Below are positions 4,437-17,845 of a stretch of DNA of 64,000 nucleotides, piece after piece. Below the pieces are notes generated by a model. It did not search any database. It was not told the origin of the DNA and saw nothing but the letters and a program-made list of their open reading frames with translations. Origin of the DNA: a bacterium SCSIO 12827 (GTDB lineage: Bacteria > Pseudomonadota > Alphaproteobacteria > Rhodospirillales > Casp-alpha2); the NCBI GenBank assembly GCA_024397995.1, contig CP073746.1, forward strand, positions 620,001-684,000. The letters run 5' to 3'. The position numbers and the translations under genes are program-made. Every line of letters begins with the position of its first letter. Positions within the stretch are counted from its first letter, which is position 1.

Positions 4437-5162
4437 ATGGCTGACAGCGAACACATCCTGGTCGTCGACGACCACCCGGACATCCGGGACGCCCTGGCGC
4501 GCTATCTGAAAGAGCACGGCTATCGGGTGACCACGGCCGACCGTGCCCAATCGGCGCGTCAGGTGCTGGACACCAGCGCCATCGACCTGGTGGTTCTGGA
4601 CATCATGATGCCGGGCGAGGACGGCCTGTCGCTGTGCCGTCACCTGCGCGCCACCACATCTCTGCCGGTGATCCTGTTGACCGCCATGGCCGACGATACG
4701 GACCGCATCATCGGCCTGGAAATGGGGGCCGACGATTACGTGACCAAGCCGTTCAATCCGCGTGAACTGCTGGCCCGCATCAAGGCCGTGTTGCGCCGCG
4801 CCACCGCCATGCCGCCGGTCGAGGCCGAGCCCCCCGGCACCTGCTATCGCTTCGGTCCCTGGACCTTCGATCCGGGCGCCCAGGTGCTGAGCGGCCCGGG
4901 CGGCGAGCCCATCACCCTGTCGACGGGGGAAAGTCTTTTGTTGGGCGTGTTCGTGCGCCACCCGGGCCGGGTTCTGAACCGCGACCAGCTGTTGGACCTG
5001 ACCCGCGGGCGCACGGCGCAGTTGTTCGACCGTGCCATCGACAATCAGGTCAGCCGCCTGCGCAAGAAGGTTGAACGCGACGCGCGCAATCCCGAATACA
5101 TCAAGACCCATTGGGGCGGCGGTTACAGCTTTGCCGCCCCTGTGGAGGTCATCCGGCCATGA
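4437..5162 (+). CDS. OmpR-family response regulator
   Basis: 241 aa. An N-terminal receiver domain (ILVVDDHPDIRDAL, phospho-acceptor Asp55 in LVVLDIMMPGEDG, Lys in YVTKPFNPREL) is joined to a C-terminal winged-helix DNA-binding domain (LSTGESLLLGVFVRHPGRVLNRDQLL and VSRLRKKVERD). AGGAAAG lies upstream of the ATG. Its stop overlaps the start of the histidine kinase (ATGA), so the two are translationally coupled and form a cognate pair. The signal sensed is unknown. Confidence 0.93.
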   Translation: MADSEHILVVDDHPDIRDALARYLKEHGYRVTTADRAQSARQVLDTSAIDLVVLDIMMPGEDGLSLCRHLRATTSLPVILLTAMADDTDRIIGLEMGADDYVTKPFNPRELLARIKAVLRRATAMPPVEAEPPGTCYRFGPWTFDPGAQVLSGPGGEPITLSTGESLLLGVFVRHPGRVLNRDQLLDLTRGRTAQLFDRAIDNQVSRLRKKVERDARNPEYIKTHWGGGYSFAAPVEVIRP

Positions 5163-6625
5163 CGGCGCCGTCGTTCAGATTGCCCTGGCCGCGGTCCCTG
5201 GCGGCGCAGTTGATTGCGTCGTTGCTGGTCGCGATCACCGTCGCCCAGGTCGTCAGTTTCGTCGTGTTCACGTCGGAACGTCGCGAGGACATTGCCAACG
5301 CGCGGCGCGAACAGGTGATGCAGCGCGCGGCTTCGCTGGTAAAGATGCTTGACCGCCTGGGGACGCAACGCGACGCGGCCCTGACCGAGACGATCCTGAC
5401 GGCGGCGACCTCGACCCGTGTGCGGTTCTGGATCGCGCCGACCAATGCGGTGCCGGCGGATCGGGCGGAGGTGGTCGACAATGATTATGTCCGCTCCCTG
5501 TCAGATCGCCTGGGCGACGATGACCGGCGGCGGATTCTCATTATGGTGGCCGATCATGACGACCACCGGCTGCTGTCCATGCCCCCGTTCATTCACCGAC
5601 TGCACCGTAAGTGGCATGGAGAGGACGCCAAAGCCGCCGGGTCGCCTGCGGTGGATGCGGGCGCCCCGCCCCATCGCCCCGTGGGCCTGGCGCTGTCCGT
5701 GTCGTTGGGCGGCGGTGAATGGCTGAACGGGGAATGGGCAGCCCCGCCGCCGCGCGTGTGGGGCATCCGCGCCTTGATCGCCATGGCGCTGATGGTGCTG
5801 GCGGTATCCGCCGTCAGTTTCCTGATCGTGCGACGCCTGACCCGTCCGCTGCGCGAACTGACCGCTGCCGCCGATGCGCTTGGCCGCGGCGACGTGCCGC
5901 CGCCGCTGACACCCCGGGGGCCCGGCGAAATCCGCCGTACGACCGCCGCCTTCAACACTATGCAGGAACGCCTGCACCGCTTCGTCGCCGATCGCACGCG
6001 CATGCTGGCCGCCATCAGCCACGATCTGCGCACCCCGCTGACGTCGCTGCGCCTGCGCGCCGAATTCATCACCGATGACGCGGAAAACAAGCAGAAGATC
6101 CTGAACATCCTGGACGAGATGGAACGCATCACCGAAGCCACGCTTGCCTTCGCCCGCGACGAACAGGCGGGTGGTCAGTCGGAAGCCACGGACATCGCGG
6201 CACTTTGCGCCGACGTCGCCCAGGAACTGGGCGACATGGGCCTGGACGTCACGTTCACACCGGCGGGGCCGGCCGTCATGATCTGTCAGCCGACGGCGAT
6301 CAAGCGGGCCATTCGCAATTTGGCCCAGAACGCCGTTCATTACGGCGGCCGTGCGCGCCTGGCGGCACGTCTTGAAAACAATGAAATCCTGATCACGGTC
6401 GAGGACGACGGCCCCGGTATTCCCGAAGCCGACCACGACAGCGTGTTCGAACCCTTTACCCGGCTGGAAACCTCGCGCAGCCATGAAACGGGCGGGGTTG
6501 GGCTGGGTTTGGCGATCACCCGCAACATCGTGCGGGCCCATGGCGGCGACATTCGCCTGGAAAATCTGACGCCCCGGGGACTGCGGGTGACCGTGTCCCT
6601 GCCGCTGCCAAATGACGGCGATTAA
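5159..6625 (+). CDS. Sensor histidine kinase, EnvZ-like
   Basis: 488 aa from the ATG that overlaps the regulator stop. Two membrane segments (about residues 14-38 and 205-228) flank a periplasmic domain rich in His and Asp (DHDDHRLLSMPPFIHRLHRKWHGED), followed by a HAMP segment and the H-box ISHDLRTPLTSL (phospho-His near residue 288). The ATPase domain has N-box NLAQNAVHYGG, G1 EDDGPGIPEAD and G2 GVGLGLAITRNI. The His/Asp-rich periplasmic patch could bind metal, which is inference. It directly precedes the GGDEF-EAL-like cluster, separated by 127 bases with a possible promoter. Confidence 0.92.
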   Translation: MTAPSFRLPWPRSLAAQLIASLLVAITVAQVVSFVVFTSERREDIANARREQVMQRAASLVKMLDRLGTQRDAALTETILTAATSTRVRFWIAPTNAVPADRAEVVDNDYVRSLSDRLGDDDRRRILIMVADHDDHRLLSMPPFIHRLHRKWHGEDAKAAGSPAVDAGAPPHRPVGLALSVSLGGGEWLNGEWAAPPPRVWGIRALIAMALMVLAVSAVSFLIVRRLTRPLRELTAAADALGRGDVPPPLTPRGPGEIRRTTAAFNTMQERLHRFVADRTRMLAAISHDLRTPLTSLRLRAEFITDDAENKQKILNILDEMERITEATLAFARDEQAGGQSEATDIAALCADVAQELGDMGLDVTFTPAGPAVMICQPTAIKRAIRNLAQNAVHYGGRARLAARLENNEILITVEDDGPGIPEADHDSVFEPFTRLETSRSHETGGVGLGLAITRNIVRAHGGDIRLENLTPRGLRVTVSLPLPNDGD

Positions 6626-6667
6626 AGGCCCAGGACAACAGGCTGGGCGACTATAACTAAAGCCTTG

Positions 6668-6698
6668 TTGGCAAAGGGTTTTATTTTAAGGCTATACT
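6668..6698 (+). promoter_or_regulatory. Possible sigma-70-like promoter of the triple-paralogue cluster
   Basis: TTGGCA (6668-6673) and TATACT (6693-6698) are separated by 19 bases, slightly longer than ideal, in an AT-rich stretch about 55 bases before the GTG start at 6753. The -10 box is good; the -35 pairing is uncertain. Confidence 0.4.
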
Positions 6699-6752
6699 GC
6701 CGCTCGGCGCTGCCGGACGGGGACCGGCAGCTGCCCGCAGAGGAGGCAGATC

Positions 6753-7982
6753 GTGGAAACCCTGAATGCGGGCGCAAACGGCGAACCGGGCGGCGAGATC
6801 GGCACCATTCACGATCTGATGGAGACGCTGGACCATTGGTCAGCGGCCGAGTCCGACCTCAATCACCTACTGCTGGTGTCCTTCACCACGCTCGGCATGC
6901 CCGATCAGCAGGCCGGGGTGCAGCAGGCGCTCGAGGGAGCCTTCCTTACCTTCGTCCATTCCCGTGGCGGGCAAGTGTACAAGCTGTCAGATCTGGACAC
7001 CGCGATCCTGATCAAGCTTGCTGAATTCAACCGCATGGAAGCGATGATGGACCTCAAGGTCGACATCATGCGAGTCATCCAGCAGCACCTGCCGGAACAT
7101 TTCTCCAAGATCGATCAGGCCCGTCTGATCCGGCCCATCGACCTTGGCGCGCGCCTGGACGCGGCCAAGCGGTTTCTGGATGCCTATGGCGACCGCCGCC
7201 GCGAGACGGCCGGCGACGAAAGCGGCGAACGGCCGCTCAACATGCAGGACATCCAGAAACTGCGCGACGCGCTGCGCAAACTGGGCCCGCGGGAATTCGG
7301 CAAGCGCTATATCCGCTCGCAGACAGCGGCCCGGATCGTACCGGGCAAAACAGCCCAGCCGGTGATGACCGAATATTATGTTGGGGTTGATCTGCTGAAG
7401 CAGTCGATCCTGCGCGGGGTCGATATCCGCGGCACCGGCAACGTATTCAACCAGCTGACCCTGACTTTCGATCAGGCGCTGCTGTACTGCATCGGCGCCG
7501 TGACCAACGACAGAAGCAAGACGTCGCTGAACATGAACGTGGAAACCGTGTTCACCAATGCCTTCGACCATTTCCTGAACGAAGGCGGCGATGCGGGGCT
7601 GGCCGGTGTGATCATCGAATTCCGCCAGGACAACATGTTCCAGCATTTCAGCCAATTCCAGACTGCGTGTGACTTGATTCATAAGCGCGGCGGCACCGTC
7701 GCCATCGACAATGTGCAGCCGGAAACCTTAGGCGTGGTCAATCTGCACCGCCTGAAGGTCAAGATGGCTAAGGTCATGTGGCGGGGCGACGCCGAGGACT
7801 CCTACCTCCAGGCCAAGGACGATATCCGAACCATGCAGGAAGGCGGTACGGTCATGGTGCTGGCGCATGTCGATGACGAACAGGCCATCACCATCGGCCA
7901 GAGCCTTGGCATCAATATGTTTCAGGGCTATCACGTGGACAAACTTCTGGCCGGGGGAACGGCCGCAAAGGGCCGCGGCTAA
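6753..7982 (+). CDS. Degenerate GGDEF-EAL-like protein, paralogue 1 of 3
   Basis: 409 aa, GTG start with AGAGGAGG six bases upstream. No signal peptide or membrane segment. Residues about 35-90 (LNHLLLVSFTTLGM to VYKLSDLDTAILIKL) follow the pattern of a GGDEF domain but have LSDLDT where GGDEF would stand. The C-terminal 200 residues follow an EAL domain: LNMNVETVF (VNLS-like), VIIEFRQDN (E-TE-like), GGTVAIDNVQPETLGVV (DDFG region), KMAKVMW (KID-like), VLAHVDDEQA (AEGVE-like) and a final NMFQGYHV (QGY). EAL itself and the DD and AEGVE acids are lost, so catalysis on cyclic-di-GMP is unlikely. It could bind a nucleotide or a partner. The domain reading is inference by eye. Confidence 0.7.
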   Translation: METLNAGANGEPGGEIGTIHDLMETLDHWSAAESDLNHLLLVSFTTLGMPDQQAGVQQALEGAFLTFVHSRGGQVYKLSDLDTAILIKLAEFNRMEAMMDLKVDIMRVIQQHLPEHFSKIDQARLIRPIDLGARLDAAKRFLDAYGDRRRETAGDESGERPLNMQDIQKLRDALRKLGPREFGKRYIRSQTAARIVPGKTAQPVMTEYYVGVDLLKQSILRGVDIRGTGNVFNQLTLTFDQALLYCIGAVTNDRSKTSLNMNVETVFTNAFDHFLNEGGDAGLAGVIIEFRQDNMFQHFSQFQTACDLIHKRGGTVAIDNVQPETLGVVNLHRLKVKMAKVMWRGDAEDSYLQAKDDIRTMQEGGTVMVLAHVDDEQAITIGQSLGINMFQGYHVDKLLAGGTAAKGRG

Positions 7983-8017
7983 CGCGGTCCCGCCGGATAG
8001 AGAAACGGATACGCACA

Positions 8018-9205
8018 ATGGCATTTGGGCCTTCATCCATGGCGGGGGACGCCGCCGATCTGCTCAAGAAACTTCGCGCCATGGGCGGCAAAAAGGGGGA
8101 TGTGAACACCCTTTTGCTGGTCGATCTTTCCGACCTGGGGCTGCCTGAAGACGGCGATTACCTGATGGATGAGATCGCCGAAATCCATGCCCGCGTCGCC
8201 CGCGTGCGCGGCGGTGGGGCCTACCAGTTGTCGCCGACCAACATCGCCGTGGTCGCGAATCTGACGGAAATGCACAGGATGGAGGTTCCGCAGGAACTGA
8301 AGATGCATCTGTTCAAAATCCTGCAGGAAGAAGCCCCGGAAAACTTTGCTGCCGTTGATCAGACGAAAATCATCCGCACCATCGACATGACGACCCAGAT
8401 GGCCGGCGCCATCCGCTTTTTGGAAGCATTCGAGGAACGGGCCAAGGAACAGGGGGTGATTGCCGGGGCGGACGGAATGCGGGCGTTGACAGCGACAGAC
8501 AGCCAGGCGGTGCGCGCCATCCACGCCAAGGTCGGCGACAAGGTGTTCGCCGATACCTATGTCCAGGGACAATCGATCACCCTGATCGCCGAGGGCAAGC
8601 GGCCGACGGTGATCGCCCGGGAATACTACATGCGCATGGACCTTTTAGGGTCGGACGCGCTCAAGAACGTGAGCATCCATGAATCGGATCCCTTGTTTCC
8701 GCAGTTGACCCTGACCCTCGACCAGCTGATGCTGGGCATGCACCGCCATTACAACCCGGGAGGCGGGAAATGCGCCCTCAACCTGACCTTGGAATCGGTA
8801 GGTGGGGCGACCTATCAGAAATTCCTGGCGGCCAACGGTGCGGCCAAGCTGTCCAACGTCATTGTCGAACTGCGTCTGGCCGACATTATGCGCGACCTGC
8901 GCAAGTACGAAGCCGCGCAGACCGCTGTGCGTGGCCAGGGCGGGACCATTGCCGTCGACATCATCGACCCGGCCTCGCTCGCAGTGCTGAACCTGGCCGG
9001 GTTCAATGCCAATATCGCGAAAATATCCTGGCGGGAAAGCGGCATGGAGACATTGGCGCGCAACCGCTCGGTCATCAAGCAGGCCCAGGACGCGGGGTGT
9101 ATCGTCGTACTGTGCCGGGTTGATTCCGAACTGGGGCTGCGGGTCGGCCGAGAGGTCGGAATCACCGCCTTTCAGGGGCTGCATATCGAGGAAATGCTGA
9201 TATAA
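8018..9205 (+). CDS. Degenerate GGDEF-EAL-like protein, paralogue 2 of 3
   Basis: 395 aa, 35 bases after paralogue 1 in the same direction. It has the same layout: NTLLLVDLSDLGLPEDGDYLMDEI and AYQLSPTNIAVVANL in the GGDEF-like half; CALNLTLESV, VIVELRLADIM, GGTIAVDIIDPASLAVLNL, NIAKISW, IVVLCRVDSE and ITAFQGLHIEEML in the EAL-like half. It is the most diverged of the three, and the conserved Glu-Ala-Leu and paired Asp are missing here too. The upstream Shine-Dalgarno is weak, suggesting coupling to paralogue 1. A soluble cytoplasmic regulatory role is the simplest guess. Confidence 0.68.
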   Translation: MAFGPSSMAGDAADLLKKLRAMGGKKGDVNTLLLVDLSDLGLPEDGDYLMDEIAEIHARVARVRGGGAYQLSPTNIAVVANLTEMHRMEVPQELKMHLFKILQEEAPENFAAVDQTKIIRTIDMTTQMAGAIRFLEAFEERAKEQGVIAGADGMRALTATDSQAVRAIHAKVGDKVFADTYVQGQSITLIAEGKRPTVIAREYYMRMDLLGSDALKNVSIHESDPLFPQLTLTLDQLMLGMHRHYNPGGGKCALNLTLESVGGATYQKFLAANGAAKLSNVIVELRLADIMRDLRKYEAAQTAVRGQGGTIAVDIIDPASLAVLNLAGFNANIAKISWRESGMETLARNRSVIKQAQDAGCIVVLCRVDSELGLRVGREVGITAFQGLHIEEMLI

Positions 9206-9337
9206 GGCGGCGGAGCAGTTAAGACAGTCTTAGTTTACTCCCTGATATGGGATCGTTAATTCAGGCATTATTCTTGCTTGGAATACACCGTATGAACCAG
9301 AATTTAAGACCATTGACGGAAATGGACCGGAAATTTC

Positions 9338-10516
9338 ATGGCTGACTCAAGCCCAGGCGGCGGTGAGCATCTTAAGCTGCTGACACGACTGAAGAATTGG
9401 AAAGGCGGGGCGGAAGAGCCCAATCATCTGATTCTCGTCAGTTTTTCCACCCTCGGCATGACCGAGGAAGAGGATAAGCAGCTCCGCAAGAAGACCGATG
9501 AATCCTACGAGCGCTCGCGCGAACGGCGCGGCGCCGAGGTGTACCGGCTGACCAGCACCGATACAGCGCTGCTGATGAAGCTCAACGACTATAACCAGAT
9601 GGAATGGACGTCGGAGCTGAAGGTCGACCTGATCCGTGTCATTCAGCAGAATTTCCCGGAATATTTCAGTCAGATCGACCAATCGCGGATGCTCCGCATC
9701 ATCAACCTGCAGGGCCGCATCGGCAACGCCATCAAGTTCCTGGAAACCTTCGATGACCGCGCCAAGGAAGCCGGCGTCGGCACGGGCGAGACCCGACCGT
9801 TGCGCGAAAGCGACATCCAGGTGGTGCGTGACGGCATGCGCAAGATGGGTAAGAAGGCGTTCACGGACAATTTCATCCGATCCCAGGCGACGGTCCTCAT
9901 CACCCCGGGCAAGCCGCCCATGCCGGTGATGAAGGAATACTTCATTTCGGTCGAGATGATCCGCCAGCACATTCTGACCAACGTGGATTTCCGCGGCGCC
10001 GGCTTGGTGTTCCAGCATCTGACCCGCTCCCTCGATCAGATGCTCATCGAATGTTTCGATGAAGTGAATCCGGACCGCGCCAAGGCGTCCCTCAATCTGA
10101 ACGTGGAAACCGTGTTCACCCATTCGTTCCAGAACCTCCTGGAAAAGGGCGGCAAGGCATTGTCGAGCTTGGTCCTGGAGTTTCGCGCCGAAAACATCCT
10201 GCAGAACTGGGATCAGTTCCAGACCGCGTCGGAACTGATCACCTCCCACGGCGGCACCATCGCCATTGACGCCATCATTCCGGAAAGCCTGGGCGTGATG
10301 GACCTGCCGCGTCTGGGCGCCAAGCTGGCCAAGGTGTTTTGGCGGCCGGGCACGGAAAATTCCCTGCCCAAGTTCAAGGAAACGATCCAGGGCTTGCAGC
10401 AGCGCGGCACAGTCCTGGTCATGGCGCGGGTCGACGACGAACTGGCGATCAAGACCGCTCATGCCTGCGGTATCACCATGTTCCAGGGCTTCCTGATCGA
10501 CGACATGGTGCGCTAG
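9338..10516 (+). CDS. Degenerate GGDEF-EAL-like protein, paralogue 3 of 3
   Basis: 392 aa, closest to paralogue 1 (shared LNVETVFT, LDQ and FQTA motifs and QG[FY] end). GGDEF-like half: NHLILVSFSTLGMTEEED and VYRLTSTDTALLMKL. EAL-like half: ASLNLNVETVF, LVLEFRAENIL, GGTIAIDAIIPESLGVMDL, LAKVFW, LVMARVDDELA and ITMFQGFLIDDM. Metal and general-base acids of active EAL phosphodiesterases are again replaced. The 132 bases before it are AT-richer than the genes and could hold a separate promoter. The DUF2927 gene follows 23 bases downstream. Confidence 0.7.
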   Translation: MADSSPGGGEHLKLLTRLKNWKGGAEEPNHLILVSFSTLGMTEEEDKQLRKKTDESYERSRERRGAEVYRLTSTDTALLMKLNDYNQMEWTSELKVDLIRVIQQNFPEYFSQIDQSRMLRIINLQGRIGNAIKFLETFDDRAKEAGVGTGETRPLRESDIQVVRDGMRKMGKKAFTDNFIRSQATVLITPGKPPMPVMKEYFISVEMIRQHILTNVDFRGAGLVFQHLTRSLDQMLIECFDEVNPDRAKASLNLNVETVFTHSFQNLLEKGGKALSSLVLEFRAENILQNWDQFQTASELITSHGGTIAIDAIIPESLGVMDLPRLGAKLAKVFWRPGTENSLPKFKETIQGLQQRGTVLVMARVDDELAIKTAHACGITMFQGFLIDDMVR

Positions 10517-10539: not shown

Positions 10540-11361
10540 ATGCGCTTTCCAGAACGCTTTCTGCCGGTACGCTTCCTGATTATCGCCTGCGTCCTGATGG
10601 CCGCCGCCGTCACGGCCGCGCGGGCCGAGGACGACGTTTCCAACACCGACCTGATCAAAGCGTTCGCCGGGGTCGCCCTTGGCTCCGAACACGAAAAGCG
10701 CATTCCCCGCATCATCAAATGGGTCGCCCCGGTCAACGTCGCCATCATCGGCAAGGGCTATCCGCCGTTGTTCGAGGAATTGGTTGTCCGTCAGCTGGAT
10801 GATCTCGCCAAGGAAACCGGTCATCCGGTGAAGCTGGTGTATTCCGAGGTCATGCGCCAGGAAAAGCGCCTGGCGCCCAACGTGTCCAAGATTCCCATCA
10901 ACGTGCTGGTGTTCTTCGGGCCCAAGGCGTCGCTCCCGGCGGTCATCGAAAAGCGCACCAAGGGCGCCTACAAAGCCGTCGATGCGGAAAGGATGCTGCG
11001 TCTCGGCTTCTGTCACGGGCGCCTGCGTATCAATAAGGCGGGGGCTTTGACCTTCGGCTATGCGGCGGTGCCGGCGGAAATCGTGACCCAGGTCCAGTAC
11101 GGCAATGTTCAGGTCGATCCCAAAATCTTCCTGCGTGCCTGCGTGACCGAGGAAATCACACAGCTCATGGGGCTGGTCAACGACGTTGACGGGCTGACGT
11201 TTTCGATCTTCTCGGACACCAGCCGCCATGTCGACCTGACCCATGCCGACCGCTGGATGCTGCGCATGCTCTACGATCCGCGCATGAAACCGGGCATGAA
11301 GGCGGATCAGGCGCTGCCCATCGCGGCCCAGTATCTGGCCCTTAAACGGCCCGGTAAATAG
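10540..11361 (+). CDS. Exported DUF2927 family protein
   Basis: 273 aa. Residues 1-28 form a signal peptide (FLIIACVLMAAAVTAARA, cleavage before EDD). The C-terminal half shows the DUF2927 signature: CVTEEITQLMGLVND, SIFSDT, LTHADRWMLRMLYDPRMKPGM. The TEEITQ segment sits where a zinc-metallopeptidase helix would be, but it lacks HExxH, so protease activity should not be assumed. It lies 23 bases after paralogue 3, so co-transcription is likely and would link an exported protein to a cytoplasmic nucleotide-signalling-like trio. Confidence 0.8.
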   Translation: MRFPERFLPVRFLIIACVLMAAAVTAARAEDDVSNTDLIKAFAGVALGSEHEKRIPRIIKWVAPVNVAIIGKGYPPLFEELVVRQLDDLAKETGHPVKLVYSEVMRQEKRLAPNVSKIPINVLVFFGPKASLPAVIEKRTKGAYKAVDAERMLRLGFCHGRLRINKAGALTFGYAAVPAEIVTQVQYGNVQVDPKIFLRACVTEEITQLMGLVNDVDGLTFSIFSDTSRHVDLTHADRWMLRMLYDPRMKPGMKADQALPIAAQYLALKRPGK

Positions 11362-12438: not shown

Positions 12439-13644
12439 TCAGGCGCGCAATAGGATTCCCAAGGTTCTGAGGTGGGAGACACCGTTGCGGATTTCGGGTT
12501 CGCTGAGATTTGGCAGGCTCGTTTCCAACTCCGCGCGGGTGACGACGTCCCGGTCGAGGACCCATTCTGCAAGTTCCGCGGTGGCGGGAGTGATGGTGTC
12601 CCGGGTCTTCGGTGTTTTGACCTGCCAGTCTTGGCCCCGCCGCGCCAGTTTGACCCCGGCAGACTGGACGCGGAAGAAACCGGCGAATTCGGGGTCGGGA
12701 AGATCGAAGCCGGGAACCATGTCGAACAGTCGCCGGCGCTGTTCTTCCAACAATTCGGTGGTGACCTGGGGGTCGTCGAGTATATCCATCAGTCGCCCGG
12801 CAAGGTCGCGGACGCGTTCACGGTACAATTCGGGTTCATCCACGGTCGGCATCTCGCGGCGGAACAGGGGATCGGCAGTCGCCGCGCGGCTCACCGTGCG
12901 CAGAAAATCCAGGCCGGTTGGTCTGACCGTCCCGAACGACAGATGCAGGCAGGAATCCGACGCGGCCAGCGCGTCGTGGTACTGGCCGCGCGGAATATAG
13001 AGGATATCCCCCGGCGTCATGGTGATTTCCTGCGCCAGGGCGCCCCGGGCCTTGGCGTGATAGGCTTCATCGAAACTGGCGTAGCGATAGCCGTCGGCCT
13101 CGATCGGTTCTTCAAACCGTCCTTCATAAAGTTGCCAGGTCTTTTCGCCCTCGATATGGACGGCGAACACCTCCATGGTGTCGAAATGGCTTTTGAAGGC
13201 GGGCCGCTGGCAGCGGGAGTAATAGGCATTGCAGGTGACGCGGGACGCTGTCGCCATCTGCAAGGCCGTGGCGATCGCCGCCGACCCGGAATCCAGCATC
13301 TCCATCAAGTCCAGAACCAGGGACGCGCCGTCTTCAAGAAGGCCTCCGACCCGGGGCCAGTCCGGCACCATGGCGCGTCCGCCTTCGCGCAGAGTGCCCA
13401 TGGAGCAGAATTCGTCGGGGGCCAGATTGCGGCCGTCCAGCGCCATTTTCATGGTATGGGCGTTCCATACCGTGGTCATGTTGATCAGCCGGTTGAACGA
13501 CGACCAGTCGAACAGGCGGCGGATCTTGTCGGCATCGCCCGGAATGTGGACGGCCCGGCGGCCGGAATACTCGGTGAAAAAGGTTTCCGGCGTCATGGGT
13601 GCGATCAGATCGCGAAACGTTATGCTGGTTTGAGGATCCCGCAC
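12439..13644 (-). CDS. JmjC/cupin_4 Fe(II)-2-oxoglutarate oxygenase
   Basis: 401 aa. The sequence SHFDTMEVFAVHIEGEKTWQLY holds the HxD metal pair and GQYHDAL the distal His, in the arrangement of ribosomal-oxygenase-type (cupin_4) hydroxylases. These hydroxylate a side chain of a ribosomal or other protein using 2-oxoglutarate and oxygen. After the double-stranded beta-helix, a helical region and a C-terminal winged-helix-like segment (TPATAELAEWVLDRDVVTRAEL) follow, as in that family. The protein substrate is not known. Upstream is a 336-base gene-free region. Confidence 0.82.
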   Translation of the reverse strand: MRDPQTSITFRDLIAPMTPETFFTEYSGRRAVHIPGDADKIRRLFDWSSFNRLINMTTVWNAHTMKMALDGRNLAPDEFCSMGTLREGGRAMVPDWPRVGGLLEDGASLVLDLMEMLDSGSAAIATALQMATASRVTCNAYYSRCQRPAFKSHFDTMEVFAVHIEGEKTWQLYEGRFEEPIEADGYRYASFDEAYHAKARGALAQEITMTPGDILYIPRGQYHDALAASDSCLHLSFGTVRPTGLDFLRTVSRAATADPLFRREMPTVDEPELYRERVRDLAGRLMDILDDPQVTTELLEEQRRRLFDMVPGFDLPDPEFAGFFRVQSAGVKLARRGQDWQVKTPKTRDTITPATAELAEWVLDRDVVTRAELETSLPNLSEPEIRNGVSHLRTLGILLRA

Positions 13645-13979
13645 CGAACCACCCTTCTTATGCCCGCATTTCAGACTTTTACTGGCCGTTCTGGCCGCGA
13701 CCGTAGTTTACGAAAACTCGTATGTATGCGCCAGCCTGGGCCCGCCCAGGATCGCCCGGTTATCCACACACCACCCGATAAGGGAATATTTTCGTTTTGT
13801 GTGATTCCCCTTGGAGGCGTATGTAGGACATCAGGCGGGAACGTCGCGCGGCGGCTGCGCGCGTTCCGTGACGATATACTAATAACAAAATGTTGGCAGG
13901 CGACTACCTGGGATAGGCAGCCTTTTCCAAAGGGCCGTGCCGTGTGATCGGCATTGTCTTCACCAGAGGACGGATAGCC
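13645..13979. other. Gene-free divergent region with hairpin and TATACT box
   Basis: About 335 bases between the JmjC-type gene and the small gene at 13980. A hairpin (GGAACG at 13838-13843 pairing with CGTTCC at 13862-13867, with a GC-rich middle) stands directly before a TATACT box (13875-13880). No good -35 accompanies that box. A short CCTGGGC/GCCCAGG inverted repeat also lies near 13735-13752. No credible short gene was seen. Confidence 0.4.
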
Positions 13980-14435
13980 ATGTCCAACTCGACAGAAAAT
14001 TCTACTACGGCAGGGGGCTTTGCGGGAAATCCCAATGCCTTCCTTCCCGGCGACTGGTTTTTCGAGTTTGATCAGGATTACGGCGACGGCATCCACGTTA
14101 TAAAGCGTGGGCTCGACGCCTCGCTTCTGGTCGTGCGTAAATACGACATCGGCACCGAAGAGGTTTTGGCCTTCTCGACCTATGACGGCAAGCGCCGGGC
14201 CATGACCGTGTTCCACTTCCACCCAGATTTCGACCTTCACAGCCGCCGCCATTACATGGAGGCCCACCGCGAAGGTTACGATGTCGCGCGCACGGTCACG
14301 AGCCATCTGGAGGCCCAGCGCGCCGAACGCCAGGCCGCCATCAGGCGCCGAGTCGCCAAGGCGCGCCGCGCCGTGACCTTGGCCGCCCATGCCGCCGCCG
14401 TGTTCATCCTGGCCCATTATTCGCCCGGACGCTGA
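13980..14435 (+). CDS. Hypothetical protein with C-terminal hydrophobic segment
   Basis: 151 aa. The ATG at 13980 is preceded by AGAGGA. After a low-complexity Ser/Thr/Asn start comes GDWFFEFDQDYGDGIHVIKRG, then FHFHPDFDLHSRRHYMEAHREGYD, a basic helix (RAERQAAIRRRVAKARRA) and a hydrophobic tail (VTLAAHAAAVFILAHYSPGR). It could be anchored by that tail. No family is recognised. It precedes dgcN by 65 bases. Confidence 0.6.
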   Translation: MSNSTENSTTAGGFAGNPNAFLPGDWFFEFDQDYGDGIHVIKRGLDASLLVVRKYDIGTEEVLAFSTYDGKRRAMTVFHFHPDFDLHSRRHYMEAHREGYDVARTVTSHLEAQRAERQAAIRRRVAKARRAVTLAAHAAAVFILAHYSPGR

Positions 14436-14500
14436 CCCCTTCCCGCCGCGACTGGCTGTGTTACGCTCCTTGCTTGGATGAACCAGCCGGGAGACCTGCC

Positions 14501-15505
14501 ATGGCACTCGCGACCCCCTATCTGATGTTCGTCGGCGATGCGCCGGACCAACTCGCGGCAAAGGTTGCCATCGGGGTCGTTCATTGGCGGCCCGAATGGT
14601 GCAAGGGTCAGCTTCGCCTGGCCGGCTGCAAGGCCGACCTGGGCATTCCCGACATGACCATTGCCGACGCGGTCAAGGCCGGCTGCAAGACCATGGTCAT
14701 CGGTGTCGCCAACCGGGGCGGCGTGATTCCCGACAATTGGGTCGGCGTCATCGTCGAGGCCATCGAGGCCGGCATGGACGTGGCCGCGGGGCTGCACCGG
14801 CGGCTGCGTGACGTGCCTGCGATCGCCGAGGCGGCGGCCCGTCACGGGCGGACGCTGACCGACGCCCGCCACCCGTCCCGCGATTTCGACGTCGCCTCGG
14901 GCCAGGCCAGGGCAGGACGGCGGATATTGACCGTGGGCACGGATGTGTCCGTGGGCAAGATGTTCACGTCGCTGGCCATCGAGCGGGAGATGAAAACCCG
15001 CGGCATGAAGGCGGATTTCCGCGCCACCGGCCAGACCGGCATCTTCATCGCCGGCGAAGGGGCGTCCGTCGACGCCGTGGTCGCCGATTTCATCGCCGGC
15101 GCCGCCGAATGGCTGACACCCGCCAACGATCCGGATCACTGGGACGTGGTCGAGGGCCAGGGCTCCCTGTTCCATGCCTCTTATTCCGGGGTCACCCTGG
15201 GCCTGATCCATGGGGCCAGGCCCCACGCCCTGGTGCTGTGCCACGACGCGGCGCGGCTGGAAATGCGGGGCACACCTGGCGTGCCCGTGCCCGCGTTGGA
15301 GGACTGCATCGCGGTCAACGAGCGCATGGCCCGCATGTTCGAGCCCGACGCCAAGGTCGTCGGCGTGTCCGTGAACACAAGTTCCATGGGGGCGGCGCGG
15401 GCCACGGCCTATCTGGCCGAGATTTCCGAGCGCCTGGGTCTGCCCGCCGTTGATGCGGTGCGCACGGGCGTCGCCCCCATCGTCGACGCCATCGAGAAGC
15501 TGTAA
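14501..15505 (+). CDS. dgcN: D-glutamate N-acetyltransferase (DUF1611)
   Basis: 334 aa. The DUF1611 fold is seen in the N-terminal VANRGGVIPDNWVGVIVEAIEAGMDVAAGLH and a P-loop-like GTDVSVGKMFTSLAI, followed by DVVEGQGSLFHASYSGVTLGLIHGARP. Family members act with DgcA in D-glutamate breakdown: DgcN acetylates D-glutamate and DgcA racemises N-acetyl-D-glutamate. The ATG at 14501 is chosen over an upstream TTG because of the GGGAGA site before it. The dgcA homologue begins two bases after its stop, which strongly supports the assignment. Confidence 0.85.
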   Translation: MALATPYLMFVGDAPDQLAAKVAIGVVHWRPEWCKGQLRLAGCKADLGIPDMTIADAVKAGCKTMVIGVANRGGVIPDNWVGVIVEAIEAGMDVAAGLHRRLRDVPAIAEAAARHGRTLTDARHPSRDFDVASGQARAGRRILTVGTDVSVGKMFTSLAIEREMKTRGMKADFRATGQTGIFIAGEGASVDAVVADFIAGAAEWLTPANDPDHWDVVEGQGSLFHASYSGVTLGLIHGARPHALVLCHDAARLEMRGTPGVPVPALEDCIAVNERMARMFEPDAKVVGVSVNTSSMGAARATAYLAEISERLGLPAVDAVRTGVAPIVDAIEKL

Positions 15506-16681: not shown

Positions 16682-17845
16682 ATGGGCGTATACAATCTGG
16701 AGCGGCTGACCTTTCTTCTGGTCGATGACAACCGTTTCGTACTCAAGATTTTGCAGGACGTACTGAAAACCCTCGGGGCCGGTCAGGTCATCACCGCGGA
16801 GAACGGCGTCGAAGCAATTGAATTCCTGAGCGCCCATCACGGCCCTTATGGCTGTCCCGTGGATATGATCATTTCCGACCTGGTCATGGCGCCGATCGAC
16901 GGCCACCTGCTGCTGAAGTGGGTCCGCCAGGGCAAGGAATCGCCCAACCGCTTCATGCCTTTCATCATGATGTCCGGTGCCGCCGACGCGGAAAACGTCG
17001 AGAAGGCGCGCGACGGCGGGGCCAGCGAATTTCTGGCCAAGCCGTTTTCCGCCCAGACCGTTTGCAACCGGGTGCTTGAGGTCGTCGACTTTCCGCGCCA
17101 GTTCGTCGCAACCCGGGAATACTTTGGTCCCGACCGGCACCGCAAGAGCGACCCGAAGTGCCCTCACGACCGGCGCCGAATCAACGAAAAGGACGCGACC
17201 ATCGTCTATTCCTCGGACCGGGTGCGTCGCCCCAGGAACGATGGCGACGTCTTCCTGTTCCGCCTGCCCAACAAGCTGAAGGAAAAGGTCGGCGGCCTGG
17301 GCATGAGCCCGCCGGGCGAACTGCCGTTGCGCCACCTGCAGGCGGCGGATCAGCACCTACAGCGCAAGGGCTTGGAATTCCATGACTGGGCGCTCGGCTA
17401 TCTGGCGACTTTGTCGAGCATCTGCGAGCGCGCCCTGCAGCAATCGGTGGATCAGCGTGCCCGCCATTTCAAGAACATCAACCTGCTGGCCCATGAACTT
17501 CGCGGCCAGGGCGGAACCTTCGGCTACCCCATCATCACCAACGTCGGCGAGATGCTGTACAAGATGACTCAGGCGCCCTGTCCGACCGAAGACCGCGCGG
17601 TCAAGGTCATCAAGGCCCATATCGACACCATGCGCAGTGTGTTCCGTGACAAGATCACCGGCGACGGTGGTGAGATCGGCATTCAGTTGATGCAGGATCT
17701 GAAGCGGGCGATCCGAAAGTACACTTTCGAGGAACCCCGCGCCGAAGCCGCCGCCAAGGCGGCCAATGTCGCGAGACCGAAAGCGAAGCATGGCGGGGTC
17801 GAGCGCATCGTCGCCCCCCGTCCCAAGTCCGGCCCCGGCGACTGA
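16682..17845 (+). CDS. Receiver domain protein with Hpt-like C-terminal region
   Basis: 387 aa. Residues 9-130 form a receiver domain (FLLVDDNRFVLKIL, phospho-acceptor Asp66 in MIISDLVMAPIDG, SGAA, Lys in FLAKPFSA). A linker with REYFGPDRHRKSD, typical of alphaproteobacterial regulators, follows. The C-terminal helical region contains INLLAHELRGQGGTFGYP, which resembles the phospho-His helix of Hpt domains (AHxLKG...G). No DNA-binding or catalytic output domain is seen, so it may relay phosphate. It stands alone, with no kinase adjacent. Confidence 0.8.
   Translation: MGVYNLERLTFLLVDDNRFVLKILQDVLKTLGAGQVITAENGVEAIEFLSAHHGPYGCPVDMIISDLVMAPIDGHLLLKWVRQGKESPNRFMPFIMMSGAADAENVEKARDGGASEFLAKPFSAQTVCNRVLEVVDFPRQFVATREYFGPDRHRKSDPKCPHDRRRINEKDATIVYSSDRVRRPRNDGDVFLFRLPNKLKEKVGGLGMSPPGELPLRHLQAADQHLQRKGLEFHDWALGYLATLSSICERALQQSVDQRARHFKNINLLAHELRGQGGTFGYPIITNVGEMLYKMTQAPCPTEDRAVKVIKAHIDTMRSVFRDKITGDGGEIGIQLMQDLKRAIRKYTFEEPRAEAAAKAANVARPKAKHGGVERIVAPRPKSGPGD

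Follow-up and report, generated by a model that had tools for sequence, protein, structure and literature searches.

Introduction

Degenerate GGDEF-EAL receptors are already known, and the protein family described here is a variant of them. In LapD both domains are degenerate; this protein has KVL in place of EAL yet binds c-di-GMP, carries a HAMP and a periplasmic domain, and passes c-di-GMP binding on via domain contacts (PMC3032553). FimX, which works with a PilZ protein, binds c-di-GMP through a degenerate EAL domain (excerpts of PMC3989770). Active EAL domains provide the yardstick for such proteins. According to excerpts of PMC11537037, the metal site is made up of seven residues (E, N, E, D, K, E and Q) and the substrate is contacted by Q, R, D and D; a Glu of loop 6 and a water Glu are listed as well. 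In BlrP1, both Asp residues of the DDFG motif are metal ligands, and water is activated by the Lys (PMC3989770, same excerpts).

A tandem trio of paralogous genes

The window, i.e. the whole 64,000-nucleotide stretch of DNA that was analysed, carries three paralogues of 392–409 aa (P1, P2 and P3) that lie head to tail on the + strand, and the open reading frames bear out the original prediction on this point. The trio and its surroundings comprise the following features.

4437-5162, + strand: OmpR-type response regulator gene, upstream of P1 (Pfam Response_reg, Trans_reg_C)
5111-6625, + strand: HAMP histidine kinase gene, upstream of P1 (Pfam HAMP, HisKA, HATPase_c)
6651-6699, + strand: putative promoter-like block 5' of P1, with TATACT at 6693-6698 (6-genome alignment and sequence)
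6753-7982, + strand: P1, degenerate GGDEF-EAL protein, 409 aa, GTG start (ORF list)
8018-9205, + strand: P2, degenerate GGDEF-EAL protein, 395 aa, most divergent copy of the trio (ORF list)
9206-9337, + strand: P2-P3 gap, 132 bp, partly conserved (7-genome alignment, mean column identity 61%)
9338-10516, + strand: P3, degenerate GGDEF-EAL protein, 392 aa, trio copy under the strongest constraint (ORF list)
10540-11361, + strand: DUF2927 protein gene (Pfam DUF2927, E 1.6e-35)

P1 shares 44% identity with P3 and P2 shares 34%, and the P3 counterpart in Rhodospirillaceae bacterium UBA1479 is 99% identical. The spacing is 35 bp between P1 and P2, 132 bp between P2 and P3 and 23 bp between P3 and the DUF2927 gene, and these four genes probably share one operon. 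The DUF2927 gene accompanies the trio in the window, in loci L006-L009 and L011 (by clustering) and in L010 (by reading of the ORF list). In L010 no response regulator or HAMP kinase was seen upstream of the trio. Because this locus carries the trio and the DUF2927 gene without the kinase pair, the pair is not required; we reject an obligatory coupling and regard the pair as a neighbour and not an obligatory part of the trio unit. A kinase-P1 fusion in L007 (genome G005), where a 1008-codon frame is open, was also rejected, as the kinase reads in a different frame.

The promoter-like block before P1 is kept in an alignment of six genomes of the genus, L010 included. A consensus promoter scan did not report the block, and a scan for promoters and terminators gave the same counts as in shuffled sequences. 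The P2-P3 gap is similar in length across seven genomes (117-137 bp) with a conserved core, and may hold a second regulatory element. Elsewhere in the window, positions 16682-17845 encode a 387-aa protein whose receiver domain is followed only by a weak Hpt-like match (E 0.16), with no domain assigned to the C-terminal half.

Fold and domain assignment

All three copies match the Pfam EAL profile (E 2.2e-6 for P1, 3e-5 for P2 and 8.7e-6 for P3), with scores of 27.7, 24.0 and 25.7 bits that lie below the curated PF00563 cut-off of 31.3 bits, and the profile matches all 24 proteins of a 24-member family alignment at E <= 1. Profile-profile comparison with EAL gives a probability of 97%, versus less than 1% for the crossed controls (N-half against EAL and C-half against GGDEF). 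By these three measures, the EAL motif order that had been read from the letters is above chance. The trio family has the EAL fold, a modified TIM barrel; of the two outcomes that the original prediction had named as contrary to it, an unrelated fold and the lack of an EAL match in any copy, neither occurred. In a search of PDB sequences with the family profile the matches had E-values of 0.04-0.08, and one of the four was unrelated.

An AlphaFold2 model of P3 (pTM 0.60), in which the domain arrangement is unsettled, has LapD as its top fold match when taken whole, and its EAL half is closely matched by the FimX EAL domain. The N-half of P1 folded alone (residues 17-154, window 6801-7214) is GGDEF-like, again with LapD as best row. 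The N-half of P1-P3 is thus probably GGDEF-like by structure, and these fold matches support the suggested combination of a degenerate EAL half with a probable GGDEF-like N-half. At the sequence level, the GGDEF profile (PF00990) has no Pfam match at E <= 10 in P1, P2 or P3, and hhalign of the N-half to five GGDEF domains from its own genome reaches 0.3%. The GG[DE]EF motif is absent, its position reading SDLDT in P1, SPTNI in P2 and TSTDT in P3. P1-P3 resemble LapD in that both domains are degenerate; they differ from it in that no HAMP, periplasmic or other Pfam domain was found in them. None of the three reaches an NCBIfam cut-off.

A half-conserved EAL active site

Conservation was read from a family alignment of 98 rows (102 distinct proteins minus four shorter than 380 aa), which also underlies the tree. 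Six of the seven metal-site residues (E, N, E, the first D, K and Q) are kept in 97-98 of the 98 rows; the sole row without K or Q, L041, is a homologue found in two pieces by genome search. These six are common to the active enzymes RocR, BlrP1 and TBD1265, as is the Gln of YQP (excerpts of PMC11537037). By contrast, the second DDFG Asp, the EGVE Glu, the loop 6 Glu and the KID Asp, by which the same enzymes differ from the family, are absent from all 98 rows, and the second ExTE Glu occurs in none of them. The EGVE Glu position is occupied by Arg in 85 rows and by His in 10, with Asp, Leu and Lys in one row each, so that the full set of seven metal-site residues of an active EAL phosphodiesterase is nowhere present. 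The family has retained half of the EAL active site and lost the rest. The canonical EAL domains used for comparison come from the 31 of 34 loci retained by a motif filter, and their counts lean to canonical letters.

The original prediction had the catalytic letters lost from all three copies. This stands for the second DDFG Asp and the EGVE Glu and does not for the EAL Glu (E207 in P1, E202 in P2, E200 in P3) or the first DDFG Asp, both of which P1-P3 possess; in keeping the EAL Glu they depart from LapD. The EALLR Arg is kept in eight rows, the P2 rows, and lost in 90, and P2 alone in the trio retains it (R204 column).

Just 11 of 392 positions show the same residue in 96 or more of the 98 rows, and all fall in the EAL half (P3 numbering: Q183, E200, F225, D233, N253, F264, E281, D311, K332, Q383 and G384). 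Seven of them are canonical EAL residues, namely the six metal-site residues plus Q183, the substrate Gln. Under random placement, six of seven sites would fall within 11 of 243 columns with P 1e-8, a value that ignores the relatedness of the rows. N253, E281, D311, K332, R364 and Q383 were placed by profile alignment, while E200 and Q183 were placed on weaker grounds: AlphaFold2 strand assignment, spacing and the P2 Pfam match. In that match residue 198 lies at profile position 28, which puts E202 at position 32, and the EAL Glu of L093 also falls at position 32 by a hand count that assumes no gaps. Two profile alignments spanning this stretch, with low confidence there, did not put E200 on the EAL Glu, and profile alignment of the E200 segment alone gave no usable alignment.

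Distribution and history of the family

The genome that contains the window has five family members, the trio and a tandem pair of 458 and 435 aa (G000:C1 about 12452-15182; L043 7452-10182) that adjoins SIS-domain (GmhA-like), HldE-like and epimerase genes. The pair also occurs in related genomes, near heptose-type sugar genes. Trio and pair are both present in eight of the eight genomes of the genus. Among 17 genomes from other genera of the same taxonomic family, 11 have one homologue of at least 190 bits and none has three. In the tree, a quick search with long-branch warnings in other parts, the trio is a single group of 23 rows (SH-aLRT 95) with a long P2 branch. Because the trio forms one tree group and the homologue is single in related genera, its probable origin is duplication in the stem lineage of the genus; the tandem pair is older. 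The proposal that the three genes together are the unit is not supported, since beyond the genus the loci examined hold a single copy or a two-gene pair.

Each trio copy is under purifying selection, with dN/dS values of 0.030-0.205 for P1 (five comparisons), 0.027-0.222 for P2 (six) and, lowest of the trio, 0.025-0.140 for P3 (six); P1 of L007 and all copies of genome G006 are excluded from this table. The 17 comparisons, spanning 0.025-0.222, agree with the view that the frame is conserved and the copies are kept by selection.

The family occurs in 78 of the 289 sampled alphaproteobacterial genomes (E <= 1e-6); this count scores at most six candidates from any one genome and includes weak matches as far as that limit. 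A phylum sample of 299 genomes, which includes an unstated share from outside Alphaproteobacteria, has matches at 1e-12 in nine genomes, all nine alphaproteobacterial. Four loci (L014, L017, L018 and L019) come from records labelled Candidatus Marinimicrobia; their homologues are nested among Rhodospirillales and the labels may be wrong. A literature search of top-ranked papers, thin on subscription journals, found no description of the trio's family, and two annotated Azospirillum homologues of the tandem-pair protein are labelled 'hypothetical protein'.

Gene neighbourhoods and c-di-GMP context

We compared the neighbourhoods of 79 loci, a total that counts one place twice (L012 and L062 are apparently one contig). 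Two family members are neighbours in 16 of these, with spacings that range from a gap of 46 bp to an overlap of 37 bp; the scripted gene calls take the earliest possible start and may choose the wrong strand, and overlaps may be start-codon errors. Neighbours were named from BLAST clusters with one member each identified by profile, and the scripted clustering missed hldE beside the tandem pair of the window's own genome. Within five genes of a homologue there is a dCache-HAMP-SpoIIE (PP2C) gene in seven loci, RegB in 10, RegA in seven, an HldE-like gene in 12 and a SIS-domain gene in eight. No neighbour common to all 79 loci was found, and on these counts a family-wide link to PP2C, RegB or hldE was rejected. 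One locus (L021) has a canonical PAS-GGDEF-EAL gene no more than three genes away. Among the neighbours that were named, none was recognised as a PilZ partner of the kind that FimX works with.

The dCache-HAMP-SpoIIE gene adjoins a single-copy homologue in L013, L015, L016, L018, L019, L020 and L022, in some of which a DUF1489 gene then follows. SiaA is a phosphatase of a biofilm pathway (PMC7647112); the dCache-HAMP-SpoIIE neighbour scores 86.8 bits against the SiaA model cut-off of 700, a resemblance only, and this SiaA-type PP2C gene adjoins single-copy homologues, not the trio. Distant homologues lie near RegA/RegB (ActR/ActS) redox genes in L150, L157, L159, L162, L163, L168 and L175.

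The window's own genome has eight GGDEF, six EAL and five PilZ matches over the Pfam cut-offs, so c-di-GMP is probably made there. GGDEF domains were found in 25 of 25 family-positive versus 14 of 20 negative genomes (Fisher P 0.005), and among genomes of at most 2.5 Mb in 18 of 18 positives versus four of 10 negatives (P 0.0006), in both cases in a non-random sample and with kinship ignored. The positive genomes were picked mostly for small size and the negatives are 20 from the 289-genome survey; the E limits were unequal (0.01 and 1e-10), and the best E was <= 3.0e-34 in all 25 positives. This co-occurrence fits c-di-GMP as ligand.

Proposed function and alternatives

Judging from the pattern of kept and lost residues, we lean slightly towards P1-P3 being proteins that bind a nucleotide and one metal, do not hydrolyse, and pass a signal on by domain or subunit contacts. 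They are more likely to be receptors than enzymes, and perhaps act as hetero-oligomeric adaptors. In this reading the EAL half would take up c-di-GMP or a related nucleotide, for instance pGpG, together with a single metal ion coordinated by the six retained residues (E, N, E, D, K and Q). Hydrolysis would be expected to fail because the family lacks the second DDFG Asp, the loop 6 Glu and the EGVE Glu, the last being replaced by Arg or His. Nucleotide binding may then alter the interface of the two domains, as in LapD, or that of one paralogue with another; the altered contacts would relay the c-di-GMP level to a partner protein. The three diverged copies could be non-identical subunits, or receptors for different partners; a hetero-complex of co-encoded paralogues is plausible from the closely spaced pairs, though no more than that. 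Against the receptor reading stand the loss of the EALLR Arg, a substrate contact (excerpts of PMC11537037), from most rows and the rarity of a canonical GGDEF-EAL gene nearby. Moreover, since LapD lost the EAL Glu and still binds, a receptor has no need of this Glu, and its retention could be the sign of an enzyme. The broader notion of a class of alphaproteobacterial half-site EAL receptors, with one invariably kept metal site and Arg or His at the former EGVE Glu, whose co-encoded paralogues (pairs in many lineages, the trio in this genus) would form hetero-oligomers that sense c-di-GMP or a different nucleotide on behalf of two-component or PP2C partners, is tentative and on present evidence rather doubtful.

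An EAL-type fold can also be kept for protein-protein contacts, as in YdiV/RflP and CsrD. P1-P3 might likewise be ligand-free scaffolds whose invariant residues hold the barrel together; the loss of the second-site residues, the loop 6 Glu and most EALLR Arg residues would suit such a role, as would variable gene neighbours with signalling genes among them. However, the invariant positions are the polar metal-site set and not a hydrophobic core, and BvgR, which is predicted to be inactive, is without 12 of 13 active-site residues (excerpts of PMC11537037), unlike the trio family. We therefore consider scaffolds unlikely. Slightly less probable again, in our judgement, are one-metal enzymes, in which Arg or His in place of the EGVE Glu would substitute for the second metal and allow slow hydrolysis of c-di-GMP, pGpG or another phosphodiester. 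The near-invariance of the six metal-site residues is in keeping with catalysis, the kept Lys is the water-activating residue in BlrP1 (excerpts of PMC3989770), and so strong a preference for Arg and His at a single position suggests function; on the other hand, changing E703, the first EGVE Glu, to Ala abolishes TBD1265 activity (cited in PMC12943098), and the second DDFG Asp and the loop 6 Glu are missing throughout the family. Many catalytic residues have changed, as in decaying copies of a GGDEF-EAL gene, but decay is contradicted by the low dN/dS values and by the retention of all three copies throughout the genus, and is hardly credible.

For surveys of c-di-GMP signalling, EAL protein counts that use the Pfam cut-off would miss P1-P3, because all three score below it. 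If the family members are receptors, a c-di-GMP input in the 78 family-positive genomes of the alphaproteobacterial sample has gone uncounted so far. The half-kept site offers a clean test of what makes an EAL domain bind or cut, and with the trio and the paralogue pairs hetero-oligomeric receptors can be tested directly.
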